A stretch of 64,000 nucleotides of DNA from Prevotella sp. (lineage in GTDB: Bacteria; Bacteroidota; Bacteroidia; Bacteroidales; Bacteroidaceae): the NCBI GenBank assembly GCA_017623155.1, contig JAGAPR010000047.1:21334-85333 (forward strand), read 5' to 3'. Positions 9,160-63,722 of this stretch are shown here, in pieces. The position numbers and the translations under genes are program-made. The number at the start of each line of letters is the position of its first letter. Positions within the stretch are counted from its first letter, which is position 1. The notes below the pieces were generated by a model, which ran no database searches, was not told the origin of the DNA, and saw only the letters and a program-made list of their open reading frames with translations.

Positions 9160-9440
9160 TACTTAACTAAAATCGGGTGTTATGTTAATTTAACATTTCA
9201 AATAACGGCGTTTTTCTGAAAAAAAACTTTCGAGGCCGCAAATTTGCGAGTTTTGAAGCACTTTTCATAAATATCTGTATATAAAGAAGATACGATAATT
9301 CAGGCCTTTTCCGGGTGCTTTTGATATCGGCTCGTTTTCCAATTAGGCCGTAATTGGATTGCAATTAGGCCGTAATTGCACGCCAATTAGGCCGTAAATG
9401 GAATGCAATTACGGCCTAATTGGAACGCAAAAACACCAAA
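9160..9440. repeat. Composite intergenic element, copy A
   Basis: The 860-bp gap between SusC and the PL11 gene has no coding potential I trust. Within it, this stretch shares an ordered set of boxes with the reverse complement of 40336-40608: a TAAAATCGGG box (near 9167), a roughly 65-bp block containing CGAGGCCGCAAA (about 9203-9271), a spacer of 79 bp (80 bp in the other copy), a four-unit 22-bp array (9339-9426), and ACGCAAAAAC immediately after it. The conserved order and spacing indicate one element family. No terminal inverted repeats or target duplications are evident, and the function is unknown. Confidence 0.6.
9339..9426. repeat. Array of four 22-bp semi-palindromic units (A)
   Basis: Four contiguous units of exactly 22 bp start at 9339, 9361, 9383 and 9405. 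Each is a 17-18-bp word centred on GGCC, such as CAATTAGGCCGTAATTG, plus a linker of four to five variable bases. The fourth unit carries the word in the opposite orientation (CAATTACGGCCTAATTG). Each word can fold as a hairpin with a six-base-pair stem (CAATTA/TAATTG). The same unit appears in the array at 40354-40441. Confidence 0.85.
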
Positions 9441-9581
9441 AATGACAATAAAACTGAATGTAATTGTTGATAAAAGTTAAATCAGTGCTTTTATTGTTAA
9501 ATATTTTAAGTTAACAAAACCTACTTCATCAACTTTTTTGTGTTGTGACTTTTTACTTTCCGTTAACACTTTTAAGTTAAT

Positions 9582-9642
9582 GAATTACGAATGGTGGGTT
9601 GTCGGTTTACGCCGACAACCCACCATTCACCATTCGTAATTC
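9582..9642 (-). terminator. Hairpin after the PL11 gene
   Basis: A long inverted repeat ends two bases past the PL11 stop. The left arm is 9582-9605; the right arm is 9612-9642 with a seven-base bulge formed by a duplicated ATTCACC. On the minus-strand transcript it forms a stable stem of about 24 bp, but no strong U-tract follows. It is the best candidate terminator for the lyase gene. Confidence 0.6.
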
Positions 9643-24291: not shown

Positions 24292-24385
24292 ATTTGTAGG
24301 AGCGCACGGCTTGTATACCCGCTTATAAAGCACTGACAATCAGTTAATATCTATTCAGGCGCACGAACCGTGCGTCCCTACAAAT
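24292..24385. repeat. REP-like inverted repeat element
   Basis: Two 18-bp arms, 24292-24309 and 24368-24385, form an imperfect inverted repeat (ATTTGTAGG plus GCACGG at one end and CCGTGCG plus CCTACAAAT at the other). A tight inner hairpin, GCACG-AAC-CGTGC, sits in the right arm. Sequences of this GTAGGGACGCACGG type occur as dispersed extragenic repeats in many bacteria. The rest of 23993-24561 shows no gene; it is A/T-rich with scattered short palindromes. Confidence 0.6.
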
Positions 24386-24561: not shown

Positions 24562-24737
24562 GCAACGGAATATTAACTGGTTTACAACGAGATATTAACT
24601 GCACTGTAATTAATATTCCGTTGCAAGACAATGCGATATTAACTGCACTTCAATTAATATCTCGTTACGAGGTAACGAAGTATTAACTGTGAAGTAACAA
24701 AGTATTAACTGTGAGATAACGAAGTATTAACTACCGA
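24562..24737. repeat. Array of eight 22-bp units (B)
   Basis: Eight contiguous units of exactly 22 bp start at 24562, 24584, 24606, 24628, 24650, 24672, 24694 and 24716; a degraded ninth may precede them (24540-24561). Most read like ACAACGAGATATTAACTGCA. Units three and five carry the word in the opposite orientation (for example GTAATTAATATTCCGTTGC). The core here is A/T-rich (GATATTAA) rather than GGCC, but unit length and alternating orientation equal those of the arrays at 9339, 40354 and 48824. No coding potential. Confidence 0.85.
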
Positions 24738-38388: not shown

Positions 38389-38432
38389 TTACCCGCCCCC
38401 GCGTAACGATGTTACTTGGCCTTGTAACAAAA
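38389..38432. repeat. Two-unit trace of the 22-bp family (E)
   Basis: Unit 38411-38432 reads GTTACTTGGCCTTGTAAC plus a four-base linker and is preceded by a poorer 22-bp unit ending GCGTAACGAT. The GTTAC...GTAAC words around GGCC equal those of the array at 48824. It lies in the 660-bp kduI-ATPase gap, which otherwise contains promoters and an epimerase scrap. Confidence 0.5.
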
Positions 38433-40076: not shown

Positions 40077-40335
40077 GTAACTATTCAGCGTAGATACCGG
40101 TCTACGGTTGAGTGCGCATGCGATAACAAGTTCAGTCCTCTGTAACTATTCAGTATTTCATCCGGACTCCTGAGACCGGGTGTAAATTATTAATAAACGT
40201 AAAAACCGCGGGGTAATTGTTAAAATAAAAAGTGCGACTTGAAGTCACCGTTTAGAAAAAGCCGAGAATTTAAATTGACATTTTCGTGTCATTATTTGGG
40301 GGTTGAGATGCAATTATCCGGGGTTGGACATGATT

Positions 40336-40608
40336 TCCGGTCGTTTTTGCGTTGCAATAAGGCTGTAATTGCATTGCATTTACGGCCTTATTGCATTCCA
40401 ATTACGGCCTAATTGGAATGCAATTACGGCCTAATTGGAAATGAAGAGGGTTTGTAAGGGAAGTAGGGAAAGTAGATTTTACAGGTAACAGACTGACAAA
40501 CAACATTTTACACAAAATGCTCTAAAAATGCGTTTTTTGCGGCCTCGGGAAAATATTTTTGAAAAAACGCATTCTCAGAGCATTCAACCCCCGATTTTAT
40601 TAACAACG
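40336..40608. repeat. Composite intergenic element, copy C (inverted relative to copy A)
   Basis: Reading the minus strand, the order is a TAAAATCGGG box near 40600, a block with CGAGGCCGCAAA (about 40509-40578), an 80-bp spacer, the four-unit array (40441-40354), then ACGCAAAAAC (40352-40343). Boxes, order and spacing equal copy A at 9160-9440; the spacer itself is not conserved. A further box on the plus strand, CACCGTTTAGAAAAAGCCGAG (40239-40259), resembles one just before array D. Confidence 0.6.
40354..40441. repeat. Array of four 22-bp semi-palindromic units (C)
   Basis: Units of exactly 22 bp start at 40354, 40376, 40398 and 40420. Units three and four carry CAATTACGGCCTAATTG, identical to the word at 9405; the first two are variants (CAATAAGGCTGTAATTG, CATTTACGGCCTTATTG). 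Confidence 0.85.
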
Positions 40609-48823: not shown

Positions 48824-48911
48824 GTTACACGGCCGAAATCACATTGTTACGCGGCCGTAGTAACGATGTGATTTCGGCCGTGTAACGATGTTACGCAGGC
48901 CGGGGAACAAA
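48824..48911. repeat. Array of four 22-bp semi-palindromic units (D)
   Basis: Units of exactly 22 bp start at 48824, 48846, 48868 and 48890. All contain GGCC. Unit one (GTTACACGGCCGAAATCAC) and unit three (GTGATTTCGGCCGTGTAAC) are exact reverse complements; unit two is nearly self-complementary (GTTACGCGGCCGTAGTAAC). CACCGCTTAGAAAAACCGAG lies 15 bp before it. The array ends 22 bp before the stop of the TPR gene. Confidence 0.85.
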
Positions 48912-48933
48912 ATAAAAAAAATCATCCGGATGT

Positions 48934-63664: not shown

Positions 63665-63722
63665 CATATACTTTTACCTTTTTACTTTTTTACCTTTTTT
63701 ACCTTTTTACTTTTTTACTTTT
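63665..63722. repeat. Polypyrimidine simple repeat
   Basis: Imperfect tandem copies of TTTTTAC/TTTTTACC on the plus strand just before a promoter. Tract length may vary by slippage. Confidence 0.7.

Follow-up and report, generated by a model that had tools for sequence, protein, structure and literature searches.

Intergenic arrays of 22-bp units in Prevotella and related genomes, and their possible role as protein-bound chromosome punctuation

Arrays within the window

The 64,000-nucleotide stretch of Prevotella sp. DNA analyzed here (the window) carries five places at which short units repeat with an exact period of 22 bp. All five had been pointed out in an initial annotation and all are present on re-reading, although three of the array starts had to be moved by one nucleotide, to 9340, 40355, and 48825. 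Two of the arrays belong to a class that we call A. The first, at 9340..9427, has four 22-bp units, each made of a 17-bp word, CAATTAGGCCGTAATTG or its reverse complement, followed by a 5-bp linker, and scores 0.786 with the half-word detector described below. It lies between a left module (9180..9339) and a right module (9428..9582), both common to other class A copies and read by eye, with approximate edges. The second, four units at 40355..40442 (half-word score 0.766), also has a class A flanking module on each side, both on the reverse strand: 40190..40320 (C17:61523-61653), with 92% identity to a query from other copies, and 40463..40571 (C17:61796-61904) on the opposite side of the array, with 82% identity.

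Class B is represented by four TTAC-N9-GTAA-type units at 48825..48912 (half-word score 0.607), an array flanked by metK and a TPR gene, with units 1 and 3 exact reverse complements of each other, as well as by two TTAC-N9-GTAA units at 38390..38428, which are either a remnant or a minimal array. The class D array at 24562..24737 (half-word score 0.552) does contain eight 22-bp units with units 3 and 5 inverted, but its words, described at first as semi-palindromic, are palindromic only weakly. The adjacent HU-like gene is real (Pfam HU-HIG), and the array sits beyond that gene's 3′ end.

When regions with at least 29 of 44 matches are counted across the window, period 22 gives five separate regions, period 44 three, and period 7 two, with at most one region for each remaining period from 5 to 100. 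In fifty Markov shuffles of the window, period 22 never exceeded 26/44, against observed maxima of 29–38.

Array classes and cassettes in the source genome

The source genome is a metagenome-assembled genome (MAG) with 104 contigs, a total length of 2.74 Mb, and a completeness of 83.8%; its nearest named relatives by tyrS are mainly uncultured Prevotella. Its sample comprises 464 kb: the window, contig C42 from 1 to 240000, the whole of C8, and C41 from 1 to 40000. Over this sample period 22 forms 34 regions and the best unrelated period, 7, forms nine. A word-blind detector, which at any given period averages the identity among eight half-words (four units) taken in alternating orientation, was run with a threshold of 0.52, a single shuffle of the window having peaked at 0.41. 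It reports 35 arrays at period 22 in the same 464 kb, and at most two at any other period from 17 to 28.

The class A word, CAATTACGGCCTAATTG, has 353 copies in the genome when at most one mismatch is allowed, and its backward control has none. It is missing from the 59 other genomes searched, 35 of which are of the same genus. Beside class A, the genome contains class B (TTAC-N9-GTAA), class C (TTACAAATATTTTGTAA), and class D (the array at window position 24562). Class A arrays are embedded in a repeat with shared modules on either side. The left module has at least 42 matches, of which 35 are at 87–96% identity over most of the query, and the right module at least 40 matches at 89–95% (for each, about 60 first-look candidates, 40 of them scored). 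In our reading of the aligned flanks the outer modules look mosaic between copies, and no clear terminal inverted repeat was found in them, the best candidate matching at 9 of 14 positions. Four of the five class B arrays are bare, in gaps of 232–297 bp, and the fifth lies in a gap of 1084 bp.

The polarity of the units also varies from genome to genome. The outer units face each other in 26 of 27 class A arrays and in all 17 of the P. histicola arrays scored, and the P. histicola cassettes retain positional unit identities and flanks. In G060, the genome to which locus L070 belongs, from an uncultured Prevotella of cattle, 15 of 27 arrays have outer units facing each other, one has them the opposite way, and 11 have them alike. 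Fixed outer-unit polarity is absent in G016, a single-contig genome, and in Prevotella sp. oral taxon 299.

Eight contigs of the source MAG (C3, C8, C11, C21, C23, C26, C28, and C39) begin no more than about 100 bp from a class A array, and the class A repeat seems to break the assembly. A search for an exact doublet gave no match in genome_contigs, a set that possibly does not include the source genome.

Distribution among relatives

The arrays are real at the loci first listed, but the element extends well beyond them. With the half-word detector at 0.52, G060 has 27 arrays at period 22 and at most two at any other period from 17 to 28. The surroundings of tyrS in 80 named loci (1.32 Mb in total) contain 39 period-22 arrays in 26 loci, together with nine arrays at period 21, seven at period 18, and at most two at each of the rest. 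Twenty stretches of same-genus genomes gave 12 arrays in seven stretches. P. histicola has 19 period-22 arrays in 130 kb and none at periods 18–21 and 23–27, for Prevotella sp. oral taxon 299 the count is 23 in 200 kb, with none at other periods from 18 to 27, and Phocaeicola massiliensis has two in 50 kb, with one array at period 21. Period-22 arrays with other words occur in further Prevotella, Bacteroides, and Phocaeicola genomes. Across relatives the words are unrelated or distantly alike: the 22-bp spacing, whose survival in related strains had been named as a check, does persist, with different words.

The distribution is nevertheless patchy. There is no period-22 array in the closest named loci, L051-L055 (five loci, about 77 kb), and one of them carries a period-24 array. 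In 14 genomes that belong to other families of the order, 334 kb in all, no array has period 22; E. coli, over 150 kb, has none at periods 18–27. As for a phage origin, two exact array patterns gave no match in viral_contigs.

Palindromic arrays with the same build but other periods lie in relatives at L054:20465-20642 (period 24), L112:8140-8231 (23), and L130:8383-8492 (21). Two related Prevotella MAGs carry the same array at a near-equal distance from tyrS (L087:14858 and L088:6730).

Array size

Searching by word and accepting chains from two units upward, we counted exactly four units (88 bp) in 26 of 28 class A clusters and in 23 of 27 clusters in G060. The word clusters of oral taxon 299 have three units in 10 cases and four in 11, and those of P. 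histicola three units in two cases, four in 10, and five in six; the unit counts rise when one more mismatch is allowed. Array length thus peaks at four, sharply in two genomes and as a range of three to five units in two others. Another count for oral taxon 299 put 20 of 21 arrays at four, but four is its built-in starting value, and the word-cluster count was used instead.

The half-word detector fires only at about four units, so that only the upper edge of its size counts is informative. By free extension, eight half-units are found in 31 of 35 arrays in the source genome, 23/27 in G060, 5/8 in G063, 3/5 in G065 (a Bacteroides MAG), 22/39 in the named loci, and 10/25 in G016, and in P. histicola 16 of 19 arrays have nine half-units.

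Position relative to genes

Gene calls for array positions were made with a custom codon-usage script rather than a standard caller. In five genomes, no predicted gene contains any of the 92 arrays (0/35 in the source genome), and none contains any of the 19 in P. histicola; two of 23 lie within one in oral taxon 299, which makes 2/134 arrays inside a predicted ORF overall. Between co-directional genes, the array is closer to the 3′ end of the upstream gene in 40 of 46 pairs in the five genomes, in 9/12 pairs in P. histicola, and in 12/19 in oral taxon 299.

Array positions are barely conserved between species: on the 3′ side of genes, two conserved positions were found where 1.7 were expected, and on the 5′ side five against 1.7 (P 0.011). 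The case for a conserved position downstream of tyrS, suggested by eight arrays within 1 kb in 8/80 loci, is weak, gene ends being where intergenic DNA is. Three genomes have differently worded arrays 5′ of one gene, namely metK of the source genome (window position 48825) and its homologues in G016 and L081.

Spacing along the chromosome

Intervals between arrays were compared with random intergenic placement; other null models gave like results for the source sample. There, the 31 intervals have a coefficient of variation (CV) of 0.32 against 0.72 under the null, and none is under 5 kb where 7.5 would be expected. In G060 the CV is 0.56 against 0.82 (P 0.013), with 0/23 intervals under 5 kb against 6.8 expected. 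In G016, with the threshold at 0.48 and close pairs merged (two pairs lie 0.7–0.8 kb apart before merging), 0/22 intervals are under 5 kb against 5.8 expected (P 0.0005), and the CV of 0.67 against 0.86 is not significant (P 0.10). G063 gives a CV of 0.22 against 0.75 (P 0.0025, n=7), and at the looser threshold of 0.48 additional weak arrays appear, down to 1.2 kb apart. In oral taxon 299 the CV is 0.45 against 0.83 (P 0.0013), with 4/22 intervals under 5 kb against 8.9 expected (P 0.006). No significant effect was seen in P. histicola (CV 0.59 against 0.71, P 0.18; 7/17 under 5 kb against 8.3 expected), and none in the four intervals of G065 (CV 0.89). Even spacing, or fewer close pairs than chance, is therefore present in the source genome and in four of six others. 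The mean interval is 12.9 kb in both the source genome and G060, 13.2 kb in G016, 8.7 kb in G063, about 8.2 kb in oral taxon 299, and 6.7 kb in P. histicola.

The spacing of the source genome also holds between classes: all eight non-A arrays of the sample are at least 7.8 kb from the closest class A array, a separation reached in 0/20,000 trials of random intergenic placement, and in a fraction of 0.00025 when larger gaps only are used. This independence from the word is not predicted by sequence-based repeat instability. Read by eye, G063 interleaves three word types.

Duplex half-sites or RNA hairpins

Do the units work as double-stranded DNA, or as folded RNA? Four arrays of the window fold strongly as RNA, with z from −5.7 to −9.5 (one array being cut at 139 nt), but such folding is expected from a mix of inverted copies. 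The arms of the units are a more direct witness. Among 107 units of G060, arm pairs 1–7 show 136 single changes and one compensated double. The 108 class A units have no compensated change, and the z of about +3.5 at pairs 2 and 3 comes from linked non-pairing variants. In the 99 units of G016, compensated doubles occur at chance rate, z lies within about 1 of zero for pairs 2–9, and it is negative for pairs 1 and 10. In P. histicola and in oral taxon 299, anchored tests gave no positive z for the arms, and pairing across units showed no consistent covariation, with z of 2.3–3.0 for three P. histicola pairs and negative values for the others. A first arm test had been positive (z 5.8 for the outer arms of the source genome, 2.7–3.4 in relatives), but it was biased, its phase having been picked to maximize pairing; a second mixed word and linker centers, an artefact, and both were replaced by the anchored tests. 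Because compensatory arm changes do not exceed chance in five genomes, half-sites for a protein on duplex DNA fit the units better than hairpins do. As for the other marks of a functional RNA, an outward TTTT of the kind found in intrinsic terminators is present at 0/70 array edges in the source genome and 17/246 in the other sets, and no Rfam family matched at the window arrays.

Five of six profiled genomes have an AT-rich patch 4–7 bp from each dyad, and hence one patch per 11 bp; G065, with five arrays, is without this pattern, and oral taxon 299 was outside the profiled set. Curved DNA as the common property was considered on account of these patches, present every 11 bp in most sets, and was set aside because in a 22-bp array the period test is circular. 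The core of the unit, next to the dyad, is asymmetric in nearly every case and occurs both ways round: GG in 56 class A units, CC in 50, and others in two, and in G060 AA in 55, TT in 48, and others in four. The copying of units in both orientations explains this asymmetry.

Among the three possibilities raised in the initial annotation, a protein-binding array is thus the best supported, with half-sites every 11 bp and no arm compensation beyond chance, and the same lack of compensation disfavors a string of RNA hairpins despite the strong folding. The third, a mobile or recombining cassette, finds partial backing in whole cassettes with shared flanks at many sites and in outer modules that look mosaic.

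A long period-22 array of about 14 units at L128:11399-11714 has arm variants that, unlike those of other genomes, look matched within units when read by eye (GGAC/GTCC, GCAC/GTGC, GCAA/TTGC, and GAAC/GTTC).

Comparison with known repeats

Among the closest parallels, together with PINSR, are the REP/BIME elements, high-copy extragenic palindromes with species-specific words in alternating orientations, of which BIMEs bind gyrase and IHF (PMC2817692, PMC3733652). The arrays resemble them in being high-copy extragenic palindromes (353 word copies, 0/35 arrays in genes in the source genome), but they typically have four units at a fixed 22-bp period, their words vary while the geometry stays constant, and in several genomes they keep a minimum distance from one another. 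Spread by a RAYT transposase was rejected for the source genome, which is 84% complete and has no match to PF01797; 5/14 control genomes do match. Read by eye, the class A linkers show no constant GTAG/CGTC, the type of tag that REP palindromes have at one end. GTAG is found in 16/19 class A entries and CGTC in 12/19, counted anywhere in about 520 bp and hence uninformative on such a tag.

In Porphyromonas gingivalis, the BrickBuilt MITE has a 23-nt unit in 1 to 22.8 copies at 19 loci, with IS5-type terminal inverted repeats (TIRs) (PMC4596501). Like the arrays, it is an intergenic tandem repeat of a Bacteroidales species and has outer modules, a leader and a tail; the arrays described here differ in having period 22, not 23, and a copy number that peaks at four. 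The 12-nt BrickBuilt TIR (GAGACCTTTGCA-type) is found in 0/19 class A entries (18 arrays). The outer modules offer at best the 9/14 match as a MITE-like terminal inverted repeat, yet the outer array units themselves are inverted in 26/27 class A arrays. PINSR is a 188-bp intergenic repeat without terminal inverted repeats, with 177–184 copies in P. intermedia; it is presented as a single 188-bp repeat, and the part of the paper available has no mention of a 22-bp array, a size of four units, spacing, or an architecture shared across species (PMC4755523). It may belong to the same class.

A CRISPR array was rejected: unique spacers longer than 20 bp and constant in length are not present, class A linkers being 5 bp. 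Dispersed palindromes that organize chromosomes are known from the matS/MatP system of E. coli and from parS/Noc-type sites, which are single, short, conserved words; here we have four-unit arrays of variable words. In searches of the open-access literature, judged mostly from titles and the openings of abstracts, none of the papers listed describes the 22-bp arrays or their spacing, and the available parts of PMC5771137 and PMC12306157 do not mention them.

A possible role as chromosome punctuation

Our preferred reading, tentative and falling somewhat short of probable, is that the arrays are protein-binding cassettes that act as chromosome punctuation and spread by copying. A cassette would typically present four dyad-symmetric 22-bp units, that is, eight mostly AT-rich half-sites on one face of the helix, to a dimeric or oligomeric protein that would bind it as duplex DNA. 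Intergenic and tending toward 3′ ends, cassettes keep a minimum distance of about 5–7 kb in several genomes, applying in the source genome irrespective of the word. They may anchor a nucleoid or topology protein, a role that BIMEs bound by gyrase may have in E. coli. Both cassettes and units would be copied within a genome in either orientation, which would explain why words turn over fast and each species has its own. The phase, the typical size, the independent half-sites, and the word-blind spacing all fit such a protein-bound punctuating cassette; a role in topology is suggested by the 3′ bias and by analogy with gyrase-bound BIMEs (PMC2817692). One point against a single binder is that it is not obvious how one sequence-specific protein could read several words per genome. 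Broader, and in our view doubtful, is the proposal of a punctuation system of the Bacteroidaceae in the broad sense, set by geometry and not by sequence, in which some four 22-bp dyads roughly every 10 kb, held apart whatever their word, would anchor nucleoid or topological domains while letters and presumed binder co-evolve rapidly.

The arrays could instead be a selfish, non-autonomous dispersed repeat of the REP/BIME or PINSR kind, inserted or copied near 3′ ends and without host function, its spacing reflecting selection against close repeats or an immunity-like effect. We regard this main rival as a serious possibility, though not a probable one; it draws its continuing strength from the evident copying of cassettes and from the turnover of their positions between species. 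The flanking modules common to class A cassettes, the positional unit identities and flanks kept in P. histicola, the facing outer units there and in class A, and the absence of the class A word from 59 other genomes all speak for it. It accounts less well for arrays of different words that respect one another's spacing in the source genome, for class B arrays that are mostly bare, for the lack of a Y1/RAYT transposase in that genome (84% complete) and of a clear terminal inverted repeat in the outer modules, and for the variable outer-unit polarity of oral taxon 299 and G016.

The remaining readings fare worse. A string of RNA or cruciform hairpins, serving as terminator, 3′-UTR stabilizer, or attenuator, would suit the strong folding, the 3′-end bias, the positive z of the biased first arm test, and the seemingly matched variants of L128; it is improbable given arm compensation at chance in G060, G016, P. 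histicola, and oral taxon 299 and nil in class A, inconsistent covariation across units, rare outward TTTT, and no Rfam family at the window arrays. Sites for a DNA recombinase, with inverted arms and an asymmetric core, would let recombination flip cores and swap half-words, and the core is indeed almost always asymmetric, in both orientations, in class A and G060; but unit copying in either orientation gives the same pattern, and we think this reading very improbable. Ordinary minisatellite slippage or an assembly artefact is hardly credible: tandem repeats exist, and several MAG contigs do start close to an array, but the same period recurs in unrelated words and species, including G016 and oral taxon 299, copy number peaks at four, and shuffles and other periods are nearly empty. 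This last reading is already refuted by these results.

If punctuation by protein-bound cassettes is the right reading, many gut, rumen, and oral bacteria would carry fairly evenly spaced marks on their chromosome, conserved in geometry but not in sequence. The arrays would then give a sequence handle on the organization of these chromosomes, as well as a test case for rapid co-evolution between a DNA-binding protein and its hundreds of sites. They may also place the unexplained PINSR repeat in a wider family. Even a selfish element would leave the four-unit size peak and the distance kept across unrelated words in need of explanation.

Other repeats near the arrays

Two further repeats were seen close to class A copies. 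A palindrome around GCACGAACCGTGCG, at 24356-24381 of the window, is found again in the flanks of other class A copies and constitutes a second dispersed repeat. A tandem of TTTTTACCTTTTTACTT (period 25/8) lies at 63672-63722 of the window, and also beside the class A copy at C42:100614.
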